Below, one piece after another: positions 55,885 through 64,000 of a stretch of DNA of 64,000 nt. The first letter of the stretch is position 1, and each line of letters begins with the position of its first letter. The stretch spans positions 103,876 to 167,875 of the forward strand of contig DELY01000041.1 in assembly GCA_002354655.1 (NCBI GenBank), in the 5' to 3' direction. The position numbers and the translations under genes are program-made. This DNA is from Pseudomonas sp. UBA2684. Its GTDB lineage: Bacteria > Pseudomonadota > Gammaproteobacteria > Pseudomonadales > Pseudomonadaceae. Below the pieces are notes generated by a model that was not told the origin of the DNA, searched no databases, and saw only the letters and a list, made by a program, of their open reading frames with translations.

Positions 55885-57228
55885 TCAAAAGCCCAAGACC
55901 AACTCCGGGCCAAGGTAGGTATTGGCCTGGTTGATGTCGTCATCGCCGAGCAGGCCAACCGCGGCGGCCAATTGTAGGCGCGCGAGCAGGTAGCGCAATT
56001 TGGCTTCGAGCAGGTCGCGGCGGGCGATGAACACCTGTTCTTCGGCATTCAATATATCGACATTGGTACTGGAACCGGCGAGGAAGCCTTTCTTCGCCGA
56101 GTCCTGTGCCCGCTCGGTGGACATCACGGCTTGCTGCAACGCGCGGATACGTGCCTGACCGCTCTGTACGCCACGAAATTCACGAGTGGTGGCGGAGAAC
56201 ACTTCCTCTCGGGTGGCGTTCAACTCTTCTCCTGCCTGTTCACGGCTGGCTACCGCTTGGCGCACCTGGGCACTTACCGCACCGCCGGAAAACAGCGGCA
56301 TATTGAACTCCACGCCGGCCGAGGCGTAACGGTTCTGCTGGTCGATGGTGGAGATCGAATCGCTTTGGCTGTCGGTATAGCCGAGCACCAGGTCGAGGGT
56401 CGGCCAATGCCCGCTGTTGGCGCGTTTGACTTCTTCTTCTGCCACGCCTTGGCTGTAATGCTTGGCGCGCAGTGTCGGGTTGTTCGCCTGGGCCTGGCTC
56501 AGCCAGGCTTGCAGGTTATTCGGTTGCAGGGCTGGGGTCGGAAAGTCATTGCGCAAGGTGGCGACATGTTCCGGGACTTCGCCGAGCATTTCCTGCAACA
56601 GGCGTAGCGCAATCAGCAGATTGTCCTGCGCTTCGATCAGCTCGGCCAGTGCCAGGTCGCGGCGAGCGGTCGCCTGGTCGACGTCGGTGATGGTGCCGTC
56701 GCCAAGGTCGAAGCGCCGTTGCGCCGCTGCGACTTGCTGCTCGAAGGCCTTGAGTTTGGCATTCGCCAGGTCGATGGTTTCGCGGGTCAGCAGCACATCG
56801 AAATAACGACTGGCCAAGCGCACGGCGACGTTCTGGGTTTTTGCGTCGAACACCGCTTCGCTGTAGTCGGCGCGCTGCTTGCCTTGGCGATATTCGGCGA
56901 GCTTTTGTCGGTTGAACAGCGGTTGGCGCAATTGCACCGCCATGTTTTCCGAGTCGTAGTTCAGGTCGCTCTCGACCGAGTTGCCCAGCGGGTTGTCTTG
57001 CTCCTGGGTGCCATCGACGCGGCTCTTGCTGGCGCTGGCGTTGAGCTGCGGCAATAAGCCGGCGCGGCCCAGGGCCCGGCTCTCCAGGCCTGCATCGCGT
57101 TCGTGCACGGCGGCTCGGTAGATCGGGCCTTGCAACTGCATCAGTTGCCAGGCGTCCTGCAAGTCCAGGGCGTAAGCTGGGACGCTGGCCAGACAGGCCA
57201 GGCAAATAAGGGTTAGGCGATCCGCCAT
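55885..57228 (-). CDS. TolC family outer-membrane channel of a type I secretion system
   Basis: A 447-aa TolC-type protein. The start at 57228 follows AAGGAGC, which lies within the end of the adaptor gene; the signal peptide ends at YALDLQD. Two coiled-coil repeats with FDLGDGTITDVDQA and the sequence KKGFLAGSSTNVDILNAEEQVF are the paired signatures of TolC/AprF/PrtF channels. It is the last gene of the three-gene secretion operon and completes the channel across the outer membrane. Confidence 0.92.
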   Translation of the reverse strand: MADRLTLICLACLASVPAYALDLQDAWQLMQLQGPIYRAAVHERDAGLESRALGRAGLLPQLNASASKSRVDGTQEQDNPLGNSVESDLNYDSENMAVQLRQPLFNRQKLAEYRQGKQRADYSEAVFDAKTQNVAVRLASRYFDVLLTRETIDLANAKLKAFEQQVAAAQRRFDLGDGTITDVDQATARRDLALAELIEAQDNLLIALRLLQEMLGEVPEHVATLRNDFPTPALQPNNLQAWLSQAQANNPTLRAKHYSQGVAEEEVKRANSGHWPTLDLVLGYTDSQSDSISTIDQQNRYASAGVEFNMPLFSGGAVSAQVRQAVASREQAGEELNATREEVFSATTREFRGVQSGQARIRALQQAVMSTERAQDSAKKGFLAGSSTNVDILNAEEQVFIARRDLLEAKLRYLLARLQLAAAVGLLGDDDINQANTYLGPELVLGF

Positions 57229-57229
57229 G

Positions 57230-58576
57230 TCATTGCTCCTTGAAGGCGCCGTCGACTCGCTCAAGCATAGGCTTCATCAGGTAACTCATCAGGTTACGTT
57301 CGCCGGTCTTGATCGTCACGGTGGCGGGCATGCCGGGGCGAATGCGGTTGCTGCCGAGCATGTCCATACCCGCCGAGGTGACCTCGACCTGGGCCAGGTA
57401 GTAGGGCTGCTTGTTGGTTTCGTCGACTAAACGGTCGGCCGATATGGTCAGTACCCGCCCGGGAATGTTCGGTGTTTGCGCATGGTTGAAGGCCGGGAAG
57501 GCGATATCCACTGGCAGCCCCGGAGTCATCTTGTCGATGGCCTGCACCGGAATCATCGCGTCCACTTGCAGCGGTTCGTCCGCCGGTACCACATCCATGA
57601 TCTCCGCGCCGGGTTGGATCACGCCGCCGACCGTCGAGACATTCAAACCGAGAATCACCCCGTCGATGGGCGAACGGATCACCGTATTGGTGACTTCGTA
57701 ATCGAGCGCGCGCAAACGGTCGGTGAGGGCGGTGGTTTCTTTTTGCGCATCGGTCAGCTGCGACTGCACTTCCTTCTGGAAGTCCTGCTCCAGTTGCAGA
57801 ATGCGCAGCTTCAGCTCGGCGATCTGGTTGCGCGTGCGGCCGATGTCGGCAATGTTCTGTGCCAGTGAAGCGCTGAGTTCTGCTGCATTGCGCTCCAGTT
57901 CGAGCATGCGATTGCGCGTGACATAGCCTTCGGCGGCCAGGCTGCGCACTCCTTCGAGCTCCTGGTTGAGCAGTTTGATCTGCGCATAGCGAGAGCCCTG
58001 TACCTGGCGCAGGCCTTTGAGTTGCTCTTCGGCGCCGAGGATATTTTCCCGGAGAATACCGGCTTCACCAGTTAGTGCGGCGCGGCGTGTGTTGAACAGC
58101 CGTTGTTGCAGGGTCATCGAGTCGTTCAGCCGCGGGTCGTTGGCGAAGTGGTTGATCAGTTCGGGGTCGAAGGTCACTTCAGCCAAGCCGTCGCGCTCGG
58201 CCTGCAAGCGGTTTTCCACAGTACGCACCACGATGTACTGGGCGCTGACCACGCCCAGCTCGGCAATCGCGCGGGTCGAATCGAGTTCGATCAGGGCCTG
58301 GTTGCGTTTCACCAGATCGCCTTCGCGCACCAGAATGGCGTCAACCGAGCCGCCGGTCAGGTGCTGGATGGTCTTGCGGTTGTCGGTGACGTTGACGGTG
58401 GCGTTGGCCACCACCCCGGCATCCAGTGGCGCCATGCTGGCCCACAGAATAAACCCGCCAAAGCCCGCGACCACCAGCCACAGGCCCCAACGGCTGGGGC
58501 TTCGGTCGTCGGTGTCGATCTCTTGCTCGGGGTCGACCGGGACTAGGTTTTTACGTTCAAACTCAAGATTCGACAT
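57230..58576 (-). CDS. HlyD family periplasmic adaptor of a type I secretion system
   Basis: A 448-aa membrane fusion protein. Residues 1-27 are cytoplasmic, 28-48 form the membrane anchor (GLWLVVAGFGGFILWASMA). A long coiled coil (about 140-280) and the lipoyl and beta-barrel domains follow, with RSPIDGVILGLNVSTVGGVI. This is the AprE/PrtE/HlyD type. It begins 6 bp after the ABC gene. It bridges the ABC exporter and TolC. Confidence 0.93.
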   Translation of the reverse strand: MSNLEFERKNLVPVDPEQEIDTDDRSPSRWGLWLVVAGFGGFILWASMAPLDAGVVANATVNVTDNRKTIQHLTGGSVDAILVREGDLVKRNQALIELDSTRAIAELGVVSAQYIVVRTVENRLQAERDGLAEVTFDPELINHFANDPRLNDSMTLQQRLFNTRRAALTGEAGILRENILGAEEQLKGLRQVQGSRYAQIKLLNQELEGVRSLAAEGYVTRNRMLELERNAAELSASLAQNIADIGRTRNQIAELKLRILQLEQDFQKEVQSQLTDAQKETTALTDRLRALDYEVTNTVIRSPIDGVILGLNVSTVGGVIQPGAEIMDVVPADEPLQVDAMIPVQAIDKMTPGLPVDIAFPAFNHAQTPNIPGRVLTISADRLVDETNKQPYYLAQVEVTSAGMDMLGSNRIRPGMPATVTIKTGERNLMSYLMKPMLERVDGAFKEQ

Positions 58577-58582
58577 GCTCCG

Positions 58583-60322
58583 TCACTCCTTGGTCTTGAC
58601 CGACGCCAGGGTCGGCGCGCCCATGGCGCTGGGCATCGCACTGGCCTGACGCAGTGCGCTGAAGACTTCATCGCGACTGCCGAACATCTGCACCGCGCCA
58701 TCGCGCAGCATCAGCACCTTGTCCACCATGTTCAGCACCGTGGGGCGGTGGGAGATCAGCACCAGGGTCTTGCCGCGGCGTTTAAGATCGATCAGGGCTT
58801 GGATCAAAGCGGCTTCGCCGACATCGTCGAGGCTGGCGTTCGGCTCATCTAGCACGATCAGCGACGGCTCGCCATACAGTGCGCGGGCCAGGCCGATGCG
58901 TTGTTTTTGTCCGCCGGACAACGAGCCGCCATCGGTGCTCAGGCGGGTGTCGTAGCCCTGCGGCAGGCGCAGGATCATTTCGTGAACGCCGGCCTGCTTG
59001 GCCGCGAGGATCACCGCTTCGCTGTCGATCTCGCCGAAGCGCGCGATGTTTTCCGCGATGCTGCCTTCAAACAGTTCGACATCCTGCGGCAGGTAACCGA
59101 GCCAGGGCCCGAGTTCCTCTTTATTCCAGTGAAATATATCGGCGCCATCGAGGCGCACTTTGCCGGCTATGGCCGGCCATACGCCGACCAGCAAGCGCGC
59201 CAGGGTCGATTTGCCCGAGGCGGAGGGGCCGATGATGCCCAGCGCCTCGCCGGGCGACAGGTTGAACGATACGCCGCGCAGGATGCCGATGCTCGTGCCG
59301 GGTGCATTGGTGAATGCGCTTTCTACGGCAAGCATGCCCACGGGTTTGGGCAGTGGCATGGACGGTTTTTGCGCGGGGAAGTCGCCCAGCAGTGCTCCCA
59401 GGCGACCCCAGGCCGCGCGGCTGGACAGCAACTGTTTCCAGGCGGCAATCACTTGCTCGACGGGGGCCAGCGCCCGGCCGGTGAGGATGGAGCTGGCGAT
59501 CATCATCCCTGGGGTGATTTTGCCTTCGATCGCCAGCAGCGCGCCGGTGCCGAGAATCAGCGATTGCAGGGTGATCCGCACGAAGCGCGTGGCGCCGTTG
59601 ATATAGGCCGCCCGGTCCGATGCCAGGGTCTGCATCTCAAGGATGTGCAGGTAGTTGCCGAACCAGCGTTGGCGGATGGCCGGCAGCATGCCCATGGCTT
59701 CGATGACTTCGGCGTTGCGCAGGTTGTTGTTGGCGAAACTGCCGGACACCAGCGACGCCTGGTTGGCTTCGGCCAGCGGTTTGCGGGTACTGATTTCAGT
59801 CAAGTAAGCCAGGCCGACCAGCAATAACGAACCAATCAGGGTAATCAACCCCAGCAGCGGATGAATCAGGTAGGTTACCAGCAGGTAAATGGGGGTCCAG
59901 GGCGCATCGAAGAAGGCGAACAGGCCATTGCCGGTGATAAATTGACGCACCTGTGACAAGTCTTGCAGGGCTTGTGCCGGGTTACCGCCGGCACGGCGCA
60001 GGTTACGTTCGAACGCGGCACCAAATATACGTTTGTTGAGCATCATATCGAGGCGGTTACCGACCCGGATCAGCACGCTCGAGCGGACCACTTCCAGCAG
60101 CGCCATCAGCACGTACAGGCCCACGACCAGCAGGGTCAGCATCAGCAGGGTGGTGACGTTGCTGCTGACCAGGGCGCGGTCGTAGACCTGCAGCATGTAC
60201 ACCGCCGGCGTCAGCATCAGCAGGTTGATCACCCCGCTGAACGCCGCCAGCACATAGAAGGTTCGACGCAGGCGAAACAGCACCTCTGCCAGCTCGGAGC
60301 GTGGGGACGGCGACATGTCCAT
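58583..60322 (-). CDS. type I secretion ABC exporter (PrtD/AprD type)
   Basis: A 579-aa half-transporter with six membrane helices (to about residue 310) and a C-terminal ATPase. Walker A is GPSASGKST at 365-373, the signature LSGGQKQRIGLARALYG, Walker B LIVLDEPNASLDD and the H-loop in VLISHRP. No N-terminal C39 peptidase domain is present, as expected for RTX exporters of the AprD class. GGAGG lies just before ATG 60322. It is divergent from the RTX peroxidase gene, its likely cargo. Confidence 0.93.
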   Translation of the reverse strand: MDMSPSPRSELAEVLFRLRRTFYVLAAFSGVINLLMLTPAVYMLQVYDRALVSSNVTTLLMLTLLVVGLYVLMALLEVVRSSVLIRVGNRLDMMLNKRIFGAAFERNLRRAGGNPAQALQDLSQVRQFITGNGLFAFFDAPWTPIYLLVTYLIHPLLGLITLIGSLLLVGLAYLTEISTRKPLAEANQASLVSGSFANNNLRNAEVIEAMGMLPAIRQRWFGNYLHILEMQTLASDRAAYINGATRFVRITLQSLILGTGALLAIEGKITPGMMIASSILTGRALAPVEQVIAAWKQLLSSRAAWGRLGALLGDFPAQKPSMPLPKPVGMLAVESAFTNAPGTSIGILRGVSFNLSPGEALGIIGPSASGKSTLARLLVGVWPAIAGKVRLDGADIFHWNKEELGPWLGYLPQDVELFEGSIAENIARFGEIDSEAVILAAKQAGVHEMILRLPQGYDTRLSTDGGSLSGGQKQRIGLARALYGEPSLIVLDEPNASLDDVGEAALIQALIDLKRRGKTLVLISHRPTVLNMVDKVLMLRDGAVQMFGSRDEVFSALRQASAMPSAMGAPTLASVKTKE

Positions 60323-60452
60323 ATAGAACCTCCAGTACTGCAGGTCACGGAGTGCTTAGCCGGGGCTAAGGCTGTTTGCCGTCCGCCCCTGGCGGTCAAG
60401 GTCATGCGCCAAAAAACGCTCACATCGGCGCTGAAGGGGGACTTGCCCACTA

Positions 60453-60482
60453 GGTATAGATTGGGTTTTCGACTTCGTGCAA
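60453..60482 (-). promoter_or_regulatory. candidate promoter of the type I secretion operon
   Basis: On the minus strand TTGCAC (60482-60477) and TATACC (60458-60453) are 18 bp apart. Transcription would start near 60446, 124 nt before the ABC gene. Confidence 0.45.
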
Positions 60483-61020
60483 GGCGTTTTGGTCGCTGAG
60501 CACAACTGTTTTTCGCGAGCTGAGCTTATTTATTCTCTTTTATTAGTAGTGACTTATGATTTCCAAGGGGTTTTGCTGTTCAGACCGACGGTATATTGAC
60601 AAGGCTAAGTACTGAGACTTTAGTCTAATCGTGTGTAACAGCTGACGAAGCATGCTGCGCAGGAGAGGGCGCGGTGGCTTATGTCGGTCGAGAACGCGTA
60701 GAGAAGAACCATGAGCACAGACTCGTTTCACCGCATAACACGCTCGTCACCGCTAGGGCATTTCTTCGATCCCCAGTTCCACGGGCCTCCTATTGCCTGA
60801 CGTTCAACACGGGAGCTGCAAGCTCGGTGTTGATGGGACGACCCCAACTCTGATCGAACACTGATGAGCGTAAGCATCTCGGTGCGAGCAGCGTTTGGCC
60901 TTTATCCCAAGGACTATCAGTTTTCTGTATTGCAACGCTGAGCCACGCCTTTGCGAGGGTTTGCATGCACGTGGCTTCCTGTTTTTTGCGTTTCGCGCGC
61001 TGAGCATCGAGGACACAGAA
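60483..61020. other. divergent intergenic region upstream of the RTX peroxidase
   Basis: The full gap between the ABC and peroxidase starts is 698 bp. It contains an AT-rich block (60530-60560), a possible plus-strand promoter TTGACA (60596-60601) with TTTAGT 17 bp downstream (60619-60624) overlapping the palindrome AGACTTTAGTCT, and a GC-poorer leader up to GAGGA at 61009-61013. No convincing small gene was found. Its length suggests room for activator binding. Confidence 0.5.
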
Positions 61021-64000
61021 ATGGCCGACTTCATCAAATCCGATCTTGAGTTCATTCTTCAGCAGATTTTCATCGCCGAGGCGCATGCCGCCGGGGCGAG
61101 CCTCAGTGATTTGTTACCGAACTCAGAAGTACCTTTTGGGCTGCGCACCGTTGACGGTACCTACAACAACCTGGTGGACGGACGTAGCACCTTTGGTGCG
61201 GCGGATCAGTCCTTCCCCCCATTTGTCGATCAGCAGTTCCGCAATGATCTGGATGGCGACAGCTTCGATGCCAATGGCCCAGCGCCGGGCGGGCTGGTCA
61301 CCAACACCAACTATGCCTCGACCACCAATGTGGCCGACGCTGATCCGCGGATCATTTCCAACCTGATCGTTGATCAGACCATCACCAACCCAGCCGCCGT
61401 GCAGGCGTATGTCGACGCCGGGCTGGGTACTTTGGATATCAACGGTGTGCTGCTCGGCCTGGATGGCGTGGCGATTCCCGCCGGCCAGCCGCTGTTTATC
61501 CCCAATACCGCGCCGGACGAGGGCCTGTCGGCGGGCTTCAATACCTGGTTCACCTTCTTTGGCCAATTCTTCGACCATGGCCTCGACCTCGTCGCCAAGG
61601 GCGGCAACGGCACCGTTTTTATCCCGTTGCAAGTCGATGATCCACTGTATGTCGCAGGTGCCTCGACCAATTTCATGGTGCTGACGCGTGCCACCAATAG
61701 TGCGGTCAATGCTGGCGCAGATGGTGTTCTGGGGACCTCGGACGATGTCCATCAGCACACCAACCTGACCACGCCGTTCGTCGATCAGAACCAGACCTAC
61801 AGCTCGCATGCCTCGCACCAGGTATTTCTGCGCGCCTATGAGCTGGATGCCAACGGTAACCCCGTGGCCACCGGTAAGTTACTGACCAATCGCGATATCG
61901 GCCCTGACGGTGTTTTCGGCACTACAGACGATATCGAACTGGGTGGGATGGCCACCTGGAGCGTACTCAAGGCCCAGGCGCGCGACATTCTCGGCATTGA
62001 GTTGGATAACTACGATGTGGGTCGGGTGCCACTGTTGGCCACCGACGAATACGGCAAATTCATCCCGGGTGATAACGGTTTTCCGCAACTGGTGACGCTC
62101 GGCGGTCTGGTTGAGGGCAATCCTGCCGTTCCGGTCGATGCGTCCCTGGCGATTTCTACCGGGCATGCCTTCCTCGACGACATCGCTCACGCGGCCAACC
62201 CGTTCAGCAGTCAGACCGGTGCGCCGCTGTTGGCGGACTCCGACCTGAGTACTGACCCTAATAATGGCGTCGGCCTGTCCGAGCCGGGTGCGTTCGACAA
62301 CGAACTGCTGGATGCACACTTTATTGCCGGTGACGGCCGGGTTAACGAGAACATCGCGCTGACCGCCGTGCACCATGTTTTTCACTCCGAGCACAACCGC
62401 CTGGTCGAACACACCAAGGCAGTCGTGCTGGAGTCGGCAGCTACCGATCTGGCGTTTCTCAATCAATGGTTACTGGTGCCGGTAACCGAGGTGCCGGCAG
62501 ACCTGTCGACCCTGCAATGGAATGGTGAGCGGCTGTTCCAGGCCGCCAAATTCGGTACCGAGATGCAGTATCAGCATCTGGTGTTCGAAGAGTTCGCGCG
62601 CAAGGTACAGCCGCAAGTCGATGCGTTCCTCGCGCCGGATGGTTATGACGCGACGATCAACCCGGCGATCATGGCCGAGTTTGCTCATACCGTTTACCGC
62701 TTCGGTCACTCGATGCTGACCGAAACAGTGGACCGCCTGGACCCGAATTTTGTCTCCAGCGAGATGGGCCTGATCGAGGCCTTCCTCAACCCACTGGCCT
62801 TCAATAACAACGGCACCTTGTCCGCCGAAGAGGCCGCCGGGGCGATCATCCGTGGCACCACTCGGCAGTTGGGCAACGAGGTCGATGAATTCGTCACCGA
62901 AGCGTTGCGCAACGAATTGCTCGGCCTGCCGCTCGATCTTGCGGCGATCAACATCGCCCGCGGCCGCGACACCGGAGTACCAACCCTGAATGCGGCGCGC
63001 GCCGAGTTCTTCGCCATGACCGGCGACAGCCAGCTCAAGCCGTATGCCAGCTGGCTCGACCTGATGCAGAACCTCAAGCACCCGGTCTCCATCGTCAACT
63101 TCATCGCCGCTTACGGTACCCATGCCAGCATTACCGGCACCCTGGAGCAGAAACGTGCCGCTGCGGCCGATATTGTCTTCGGCAATGGGGCGATTTCCGA
63201 CGTCGAACGCATGGCTTTCCTCAATGGTGCGGCGGCCACTACCGGGGTCAACGATATCGACTTCTGGGTCGGCGGCCTGGCCGAGCGGCAGATGCCGTTT
63301 GGCGGCATTCTCGGCTCGACCTTCAACTTCGTCTTCGAGACTCAGCTGGAGGCCTTGCAGAACGGTGACCGCTTCTACTACCTGGCACGCCTGGCCGGCC
63401 TTAACTTCCTCACCCAGATGGAAGACAACTCCTTCGCCAAGCTGGTGATGCGCAATACCGATGCCTTCCACCTGCCGGCGGATATCTTCTCGACCCCAGG
63501 GTTGATTCTCGAGGTCGATCAGTCTCGCCAGTTCAATGGCGAGTTGGGCGCCGCCGATCCGCTCGGCGACAACCCATTGGTTCCGTTGGTCATACGCGAT
63601 GATCCCGGCACCGTAGCGGTGGAAACCACCTACCTGCGCTACACCGGCGACGAACACGTGGTGCTCGGTGGCACTGCTGGCAACGATACGCTGATCGCCA
63701 GTATCGGCGACGACACCCTGTGGGGTGACGGCGGCAATGACCGTCTGGAGGGCGGCGACGGTAACGACATGATCGAAGGCGGTGCCGGCGACGACATCAT
63801 CACCGATTGGGGTGGCGATGACGTGCTCAAGGGTGGCGACGGCAACGACGTGATCCACGGTGGCAACGGCGCCAACCTGATTCTTGGCGGCGCCGGTAGC
63901 GACTTCATCATCACCGGCGAAGACGTCTCGGAAACGTTTGCCGGCCCCGGCAACGACTTTATCCTCGGTGCCAAGGGCAACCTGCAGACCGCCGGTAACG
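61021..64000 (+). CDS. RTX-type secreted animal haem peroxidase, 3' end outside the window
   Basis: At least 993 residues; the frame is open to the window end. ATG 61021 lies 7 nt after GAGGA and no signal peptide is present. The peroxidase core has distal FFGQFFDHG (Gln182, Asp185, His186), catalytic Arg440 and Glu443 in GDGRVNEN, WNGERLFQAAK, and the proximal His563 in YRFGHSML; these match the myeloperoxidase set. Between His186 and Arg440 there are about 110 extra residues with two GxDGVxGTxDD loops. From residue 883 on, RTX calcium-binding nonapeptides occur (GGDGNDMIEGGAGDD). Export by the divergent type I system, with a C-terminal signal off-window, is expected. MopA-like Mn(II) oxidation or halide/phenol oxidation is possible. 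Confidence 0.92.
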   Translation, partial: MADFIKSDLEFILQQIFIAEAHAAGASLSDLLPNSEVPFGLRTVDGTYNNLVDGRSTFGAADQSFPPFVDQQFRNDLDGDSFDANGPAPGGLVTNTNYASTTNVADADPRIISNLIVDQTITNPAAVQAYVDAGLGTLDINGVLLGLDGVAIPAGQPLFIPNTAPDEGLSAGFNTWFTFFGQFFDHGLDLVAKGGNGTVFIPLQVDDPLYVAGASTNFMVLTRATNSAVNAGADGVLGTSDDVHQHTNLTTPFVDQNQTYSSHASHQVFLRAYELDANGNPVATGKLLTNRDIGPDGVFGTTDDIELGGMATWSVLKAQARDILGIELDNYDVGRVPLLATDEYGKFIPGDNGFPQLVTLGGLVEGNPAVPVDASLAISTGHAFLDDIAHAANPFSSQTGAPLLADSDLSTDPNNGVGLSEPGAFDNELLDAHFIAGDGRVNENIALTAVHHVFHSEHNRLVEHTKAVVLESAATDLAFLNQWLLVPVTEVPADLSTLQWNGERLFQAAKFGTEMQYQHLVFEEFARKVQPQVDAFLAPDGYDATINPAIMAEFAHTVYRFGHSMLTETVDRLDPNFVSSEMGLIEAFLNPLAFNNNGTLSAEEAAGAIIRGTTRQLGNEVDEFVTEALRNELLGLPLDLAAINIARGRDTGVPTLNAARAEFFAMTGDSQLKPYASWLDLMQNLKHPVSIVNFIAAYGTHASITGTLEQKRAAAADIVFGNGAISDVERMAFLNGAAATTGVNDIDFWVGGLAERQMPFGGILGSTFNFVFETQLEALQNGDRFYYLARLAGLNFLTQMEDNSFAKLVMRNTDAFHLPADIFSTPGLILEVDQSRQFNGELGAADPLGDNPLVPLVIRDDPGTVAVETTYLRYTGDEHVVLGGTAGNDTLIASIGDDTLWGDGGNDRLEGGDGNDMIEGGAGDDIITDWGGDDVLKGGDGNDVIHGGNGANLILGGAGSDFIITGEDVSETFAGPGNDFILGAKGNLQTAGN

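Follow-up and report, generated by a model that had tools for sequence, protein, structure and literature searches.

A giant RTX haem peroxidase of Pseudomonas with a predicted dedicated type I exporter and a candidate HGPP leader peptide

Introduction

Close known relatives of the protein studied here are PepA (PP_2561) of Pseudomonas putida KT2440, with two animal-type peroxidase domains, PERCAL insertions and RTX repeats (PMC3396595), and the MopA proteins of Aurantimonas, Erythrobacter SD-21 and P. putida GB-1, which by description share its domain order and calcium motifs (PMC6247904). A stretch of 64,000 nucleotides from Pseudomonas sp. UBA2684 (GCA_002354655.1, contig DELY01000041.1; hereafter the window) was analysed, at the end of which a three-gene type I exporter is divergent from the start of a giant peroxidase gene. 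By sequence, this gene encodes a long bacterial peroxicin, a protein of known kind that belongs to the PepA/MopA family. We put at roughly 0.85 the probability that this is a locus for the production, export and regulation of haem peroxidases of this family, which would act at the cell surface or outside the cell.

Three further systems are close in part. The adjoining peroxidase genes mop7013 and mop7014 of Pseudomonas resinovorans MOB-513 are induced by Mn(II) and by cyclic di-GMP (c-di-GMP); both are described as two-domain (PMC9765421), whereas the second peroxidase gene here, compared with them by description, has one core. The PrtD/AprD exporters of RTX proteases belong to the same subfamily (TIGR01842) as the ATP-binding cassette (ABC) protein of this locus but to a separate clade, and here the neighbours are peroxidases. 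The RAPP-like arrest peptides (ApdA, ApdP, ApcA and the HGPP stallers of E. coli screens) share with a short open reading frame (ORF) found here the same-direction upstream position and an xGPP motif near the C-terminus. The ORFs described below differ from them in encoding 22–42 residues, in lacking an export signal by eye, in a near-fixed distance from start to motif and in preceding a type I cargo gene, and their arrest is only predicted.

Enzyme and exporter are of a known family. On their use to the cell and the way their expression is turned on, concrete handles in ordinary laboratory strains come from two features new here, a conserved promoter-like element and an HGPP leader ORF, and from a two-component pair that in the sample was seen only in peroxidase genomes. 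In wild-type GB-1, MopA is reported to be silent.

The peroxidase and its family

Residues were numbered from the ATG at 61021, a start of our choosing; a mechanical ORF list begins at TTG 60895. The motifs QFFDHG (residue 182), GRVNE (439) and RFGHS (560) all lie in the first core. An earlier note on this DNA had named Gln182, Asp185, His186, Arg440, Glu443 and His563 as marks of an intact animal-type haem core fused to RTX repeats; all six stand exactly at those positions in this numbering and were invariant across 50 aligned sequences, and RTX nonapeptides start near residue 900. A profile of the aligned sequences matched solved lactoperoxidase-like chains across the same motifs, best of all 8s6c (deposited as lactoperoxidase).

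The frame continues 6.3 kb beyond the window to the end of the contig, where it has reached 3,096 residues and is still open. This extension holds a second complete core (QFFDHG at 1610, GRGNE at 1880, RFGHS at 1990) and a second RTX block. The PERCAL motif GxDGxx[GN][TN]xDD occurs four times in the two-core protein (residues 232, 294, 1640 and 1671) and once in a one-core paralogue encoded on a second contig. The protein comprises at least 3,096 residues plus, very likely, a 303-residue end piece on that contig, with RTX repeats after the cores. No cysteine was found in the 3,096 residues sequenced, and 81 of 92 peroxidase frames from named loci, trimmed only to the first Met, were likewise cysteine-free.

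Assignment to the peroxicins follows from the one or two cores, PERCAL insertions and RTX repeats, which match descriptions of the family (PMC3396595, PMC6247904, PMC4420034); the MopA-type call of the earlier note agrees with this architecture and these motifs. Genomes, contigs and fetched loci are referred to below by G, C and L numbers. In a domain tree of 185 rows built by a quick method, the N and C cores of the window protein fell in different clades, each beside the corresponding domain of Pseudomonas sp. GD03944 (L019), and the C core shared its clade with that of the P. resinovorans DSM 21078 peroxidase (L015). The P. putida ASAD protein (L077) fell in a mixed clade (support 91) to which 37 N and 37 C cores belong. 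This placement fits a published statement that, of the strains examined, only those of P. putida have N and C domains that cluster together (PMC3396595). The ASAD homologue (3,643 residues, 10 PERCAL motifs) resembles the window locus in its divergent exporter, promoter element and FHGPP upstream ORF; the window protein differs from the P. putida pair in having four PERCAL motifs in its sequenced part and cores in other clades. Relative to PepA, likened here by description with ASAD as the homologue compared, the window locus adds a regulator, a kinase and the one-core paralogue.

Two observations concern other members of the superfamily. Ensifer and Rhizobium (L054, L058, L079) have RTX peroxidase frames longer than 4,200 residues in which a third core motif, highly divergent, was seen. 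The host genome also encodes a 916-residue animal-peroxidase-family protein without an RTX match (L012:4973-7723, minus strand; G000:C54), for which the nearest solved structures are plant-type fatty-acid alpha-dioxygenases.

Type I exporter and its cargo

The earlier note had proposed a complete ABC-HlyD-TolC operon divergent from the giant gene, and this was borne out: all three subunits exceeded the curated cut-offs of TIGR01842, TIGR01843 and TIGR01844, which defines a PrtD-type type I system. The ABC was the only PrtD ABC over cut-off in the host genome. RTX repeats over cut-off were found there only in these peroxidases and in one LapA-like adhesin; the adhesin, considered as other cargo, is served by its own LapB-like ABC.

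Co-occurrence was scored in 149 genomes of the genus against RTX-type peroxidases, which were separated from short-frame ones by frame length. RTX-type peroxidases were present in 27 genomes, and 7 more had only a short peroxidase (frames of at most 953 residues). Orthologues of the ABC (76–100% identity) were found in 28 genomes, comprising 27/27 with an RTX-type peroxidase and 1/122 of the others (G145). The next-best PrtD ABCs were at most 57% identical, and some match at 1e-100 was present in 119/149 genomes. In G145 the exporter is an orphan (L118; ABC, HlyD and TolC matches with other genes upstream of the ABC), and a genome search returned no peroxidase match. By coordinates, exporter and peroxidase lay within 15 kb on one contig in 24/27 genomes. 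Among the 58 named loci with at least 4 kb of upstream sequence, a divergent ABC was found within 3 kb in 40; the 18 without one include 10 non-Pseudomonas loci, some with exporters in other orders.

A tree of 77 ABCs was built by a careful method. The 47 peroxidase-type Pseudomonas ABCs, that of G145 included, formed one clade (support 100/99), with the ABC of an Aeromonas peroxidase locus as its sister (100/99). Twenty other PrtD ABCs fell outside the clade, a gene with an M10 protease motif lying near 6 of them. Membership of a protease (AprD) system was rejected on the separate clade together with the co-occurrence; the exporter does not group with protease exporters, a possibility that the earlier note had raised.

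Both peroxidase ends of the host genome, the 303-residue piece and the paralogue, read ADFQLA, and the C-terminal pattern [AVST][DE][FWL]x[LIVF] was present in 52 of 65 closed frames from named relatives. It is well supported, by the co-occurrence (27/27 against 1/122), the separate ABC clade, the common C-terminus and the lack of other cargo in the genome, that the exporter is dedicated to RTX peroxidase cargo with a C-terminal signal, in keeping with the link drawn in the earlier note. That note had also allowed for an RTX region ending in a different module with its own transporter downstream. The C-terminus proved to be of the same kind as that of the paralogue, and the complete genome G078, which has the same gene order, shows no second exporter in the stretch fetched. 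A second peroxidase is preceded by a like ABC in L024 and L028.

Two side observations were made in this survey. In G138 and G060 (L119, L120, L126, L127) the exporter is grouped with the regulators and the peroxidase genes are located apart from it; the G138 peroxidase genes adjoin frames that by eye resemble chain-length determinants. The LapA-like adhesin of the host (L128, L129; G000:C3, C10:39061-40677) is seemingly split across two contigs and is accompanied by a LapB-like exporter.

Gene order and regulators

The host genome (59 contigs, 97% complete) places the window at C40:103876-167875; the nearest named relative among the loci fetched is GD03944 (86% identity over the best segment). 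Contig C10 opens within an RTX frame of 303 residues with 90% identity to the end of the paralogue, followed by a regulator, a kinase and the one-core gene (Table 1). The order exporter, two-core gene, regulator, kinase, one-core gene is found in G078 and in the named loci L019, L025, L041 and L044. Because of this shared order, C10 very likely follows C40 directly, and the break between them would fall within the repeat array. Extension past position 64,000, which the earlier note had suggested, thus gave a second core in frame and, on the likely next contig, the C-terminal end, regulator, kinase and paralogue.

Table 1. Features of the locus. Positions are those of the window unless a locus on contig C10 is named.
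Feature	Position	Strand	Basis or remark
TolC-family outer-membrane channel, 447 residues	55885..57228	-	TIGR01844 312 bits (cut-off 225); PF02321 over cut-off; orthologue in many relatives' loci
HlyD-family periplasmic adaptor, 448 residues	57230..58576	-	TIGR01843 391 bits (cut-off 209); PF13437 over cut-off
PrtD-type ABC permease/ATPase, 579 residues	58583..60322	-	TIGR01842 type_I_sec_PrtD 767 bits (cut-off 510)
Conserved promoter-like element, TTGACA-N14-GACTTTAGTC	60596..60625	+	In the 698-base gap between ABC and peroxidase
Short ORF in the leader (29 codons, then stop), MSTDSFHRITRSSPLGHFFDPQFHGPPIA; candidate for ribosome stalling	60711..60800	+	FHGPP and two more codons
Giant RTX haem peroxidase, first 993 residues	61021..64000	+	PF03098 and PF00353 over cut-off; continuation in L010
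First core of the animal haem-peroxidase type; PERCAL insertions at 232 and 294	61468..63510 (approximate)	+	Profile match, motifs, alignment
First RTX calcium-binding nonapeptide block	63673..64000, continues beyond the window	+	PF00353 from residue 885; nonapeptides from 902
Response regulator with LuxR-type domain	L011 1053-1721 (C10)	+	After the 303-residue RTX piece
HisKA_3 histidine kinase	L011 3263-1752 (C10)	-	
One-core RTX peroxidase paralogue, 2,086 residues	L011 3739-9999 (C10)	+	

Kinase matches were found in 15/149 and regulator matches in 14/149 genus genomes, all within the 27 with an RTX-type peroxidase, and by coordinates the kinase lay within about 15 kb of exporter or peroxidase in 11 of the 15. 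The sensor region of the kinase, taken from the L019 orthologue, matched no Pfam family. In a published transcriptome table PP_2561 rises 5.8-fold without FleQ and 2.8-fold at high c-di-GMP (PMC8125075), and deletion of fleQ overproduces MopA in P. putida GB-1 (PMC9765421). Peroxidase expression is probably linked to the c-di-GMP/FleQ switch and also, in roughly half the peroxidase genomes of the sample, to control by the two-component pair.

Several points weigh against this overall reading of the locus. Exporter and peroxidase are far apart or on separate contigs in 3/27 genomes (G060, G075 and G138) and 12 kb apart in G082. The kinase is absent from 12/27 and the regulator from 13/27 peroxidase genomes among the best 10 and 20 candidates scored per genome, respectively; the G021 kinase is a fragment and the G052 pair is broken. 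Adjacency of C40 and C10 is taken from gene order in relatives rather than from sequence across the gap. The C-terminal pattern is missing from 13/65 closed frames, several of them from broken or masked assemblies, and the HasA haemophore was found in 4/27 peroxidase genomes against 19/122 others. The co-occurrence counts take no account of common descent within the genus, and the P values computed on them treat the genomes as independent, which they are not. The genome search scored, per genome, only 9 (ABC), 10 (kinase) and 20 (regulator) first-look candidates, and absence is therefore not proof. The earlier note had called the locus a self-contained system. The term is too strong, because in the complete genome G138 the peroxidases lie megabases away from the exporter and because the regulators lie beyond the window.

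As a separate observation, an extra RpoS-like sigma factor stands beside the kinase/regulator pair in 4/149 genomes (G060, G082, G093 and G138). The genes include L119:5361-6398 (G138) and L130:8265-9299 (G093), with others in L120 and L121, and the G138 copy passes both RpoS models. The host genome has a single RpoS-like match, located away from the pair.

Haem loading and biological role

The exporter would read the common C-terminal signal and secrete the peroxidase chain unfolded, a route suggested by co-inheritance, the C-terminus and the lack of cysteine. Outside the cell, RTX and PERCAL sites would bind calcium and drive folding. Haem uptake would follow export, and the haem may be fixed by two residues, Asp185 and Glu443, which we take to correspond to the ester-bond-forming residues of mammalian peroxidases. 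The HasA haemophore was rejected as haem supplier because it shows no association with the peroxidases, and it was not found in a search of the host genome. A glutamate in an RxxE motif has been described (PMC4420034), and the N-domain of PepA was purified without haem and became active once haem was added (PMC3396595). In that domain haem can be added late; its uptake outside the cell stays a proposal. The dedicated exporter and cysteine-free chain would make the haem-loading question directly testable. In the biofilm or rhizosphere the enzyme may then use peroxide to oxidise Mn(II) or small organic donors.

Three biological roles were weighed. A role as a surface peroxidase or adhesin like PepA, handling peroxide and aiding the hold on roots or other surfaces with Mn oxidation as a side reaction, is a serious candidate that we rate a little short of even odds. 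PepA is described as detected on the surface and as a determinant both in root colonisation and in induced systemic resistance (PMC3396595); two cores with long RTX arrays fit a surface protein, and regulation by c-di-GMP and FleQ fits the biofilm matrix. The kinetics of its N-domain are poor, however, with a Michaelis constant of 13 mM for peroxide (PMC3396595), so that detoxification is doubtful.

It is also conceivable, at about one chance in three, that the locus is first of all a Mn oxidase system, with the two peroxidases forming Mn(III,IV) oxides in the surroundings of biofilm cells, as the earlier note had suggested among other roles. MopA proteins oxidise Mn(II) in Aurantimonas, Erythrobacter and Roseobacter, as does one in P. 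putida GB-1 (PMC6247904), and Mn(II) and c-di-GMP induce the adjoining P. resinovorans genes mop7013 and mop7014 (PMC9765421). Against this, wild-type GB-1 is reported to be without MopA activity (PMC11930936), a strain with MopA as its sole Mn oxidase made little oxide in the dark (PMC5906577), and catalytic properties are described as not predictable at present (PMC3396595). A role in Mn oxide formation is unreadable from the sequence, because MopA was seen after fleQ deletion and wild-type GB-1 is reported to be inactive. An Rfam scan matched no family, and hence no known Mn riboswitch, in the divergent gap, and elsewhere only a tRNA in five loci. We know of no Mn-specific residue for which the sequence could be checked, which also counts against this role.

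That the secreted enzyme is a weapon, generating oxidants that kill or inhibit neighbours, appears a long shot. Secreted peroxidases of the superfamily are antimicrobial in animals, and RTX exporters also carry toxins. By eye, in the last 14 kb of the window and in relatives' loci, no immunity gene, oxidase partner or killing-associated neighbour was noticed; no systematic search was made.

Promoter-like element

Following the gap between exporter and peroxidase led to the conserved element of Table 1, which reads as a -35/-10 pair 17 bases apart; a consensus promoter scan of the gap called no promoter at the element. When up to 2 mismatches among its 15 fixed bases were allowed, it was recovered in 38 of 40 divergent-exporter loci. 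The exact form occurred once each in 7/149 genus genomes, all seven within this gap by coordinates (control 0), and was absent from 20/27 peroxidase genomes. A start codon follows 362–402 bases after the element in 33 of 39 leaders. Random-window controls for both the element and the upstream ORF overlapped real sites. Signals of biofilm or stationary phase would open the promoter.

Two further candidates in this region were dropped. The palindrome GACTTnAGTC was considered as a response-regulator site; G057, G072 and G081, which have no regulator, carry the element, and many loci have AACTTTAGTC, which is not a palindrome. The 14 bases from 60587 resemble a FleQ box at chance level, a score of at least 10/13 against the published consensus (PMC6120874, PMC8125075) being reached 7 times in the 64-kb window.

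Upstream HGPP open reading frame

The unexpected part of the gap was the HGPP leader ORF downstream of the element. Frames were collected from named loci (92, of which some are broken by the assembly or by the end of a contig) and, in 8 cases, from the window, G000, G075, G078, G082 and G138. HGPP short ORFs preceded 55 of these 100 peroxidase frames (49 with a narrower first pattern) and end in (F)HGPP plus usually 2 or 7 codons. Bearers include the host's own one-core paralogue (L011 3500-3628) and an Aeromonas gene (L065). Since the 55 were selected on HGPP, independent evidence comes from start spacing, synonymous spellings and absence elsewhere. With any spacing of 15–30 allowed, Met stood 23 residues before His in 40/55 and 24 in 8/55, while the intervening residues vary widely. 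The 12 bases of HGPP were spelled in 26 synonymous ways, and F preceded the motif in 41/55. In 76 named loci (3.95 million strand-bases) all 50 such ORFs lay in peroxidase leaders and none elsewhere; for this clean control, two ORFs initially scored as elsewhere proved to be alternative starts at known sites. A Shine-Dalgarno-like tetramer, from a permissive list used with no control, preceded 53/55 starts. The variable first 23 residues showed no apparent localisation signal on a by-eye reading.

Screens in E. coli have yielded HGPP as a motif that stalls elongation, and it is counted among RAPP-like motifs (PMC7897499, PMC10987492, PMC10951233, PMC12992588). The HGPP peptide probably tunes peroxidase output through ribosome stalling: ribosomes on the leader ORF would stall at FHGPP under some condition, raising or lowering the output, and the stalled chain, almost constant in length at 26 residues counted to the first Pro, would sit within the exit tunnel. 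We lean slightly towards a new family of nascent-peptide regulators, with leaders mostly of 29–34 residues, in which the state of translation or a ligand sensed by the nascent chain sets the output of a giant type I cargo. If so, the leader would be of the arrest type, show no obvious export signal and be based on HGPP and not on RAPP or RGPP, and control by arrest peptides would extend to an enzyme that is secreted, may oxidise metal and is linked both to Mn biomineralisation and to the colonisation of roots. A literature search of titles and abstract openings, with most subscription journals outside it, returned no such ORF before these peroxidase genes, and the word "peroxidase" is absent from the main text of PMC10987492 and PMC12992588.

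The block could instead be a DNA or RNA site that happens to read HGPP and is not translated, which we consider very improbable. It sits in a conserved leader, its translation is only predicted, and the L018 group keeps most of it without an ATG. The many synonymous spellings, the Met at 23 codons and the Shine-Dalgarno-like tetramers nevertheless speak for a peptide. The window leader, moreover, folds no better than shuffles, and a consensus fold over 24 leaders was weak; these were hand-picked from the 39 with the promoter element, omitting near-copies, L035 and five short-leader loci, and kept HGPP in 21 and HG in 24. A riboswitch or structured leader was rejected on the weak folds and the empty Rfam scan of the gap. 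In 18 leaders a GC hairpin stands ahead of the start codon; it is not claimed, because it is kept mostly by one-sided changes.

As to the distribution of the candidate leader peptide, the ORF was found in 29/40 divergent-exporter loci and is missing from most non-Pseudomonas loci. The 11 divergent loci without it are five with short leaders (L046, L081, L082, L086, L087), L039 and L043, which also lack the promoter element, and L018, L025, L041 and L044, which read HGSP or HGSH. No ATG was seen in the leader block of L018, L025 or L044 as aligned or listed. The last four belong with L122 to a P. chengduensis/toyotomiensis group in which the two-core leader reads HGSP or HGSH where listed, seemingly with no ATG; HGPP ORFs precede the one-core genes of L025, L041 and L044, which provides a natural control.

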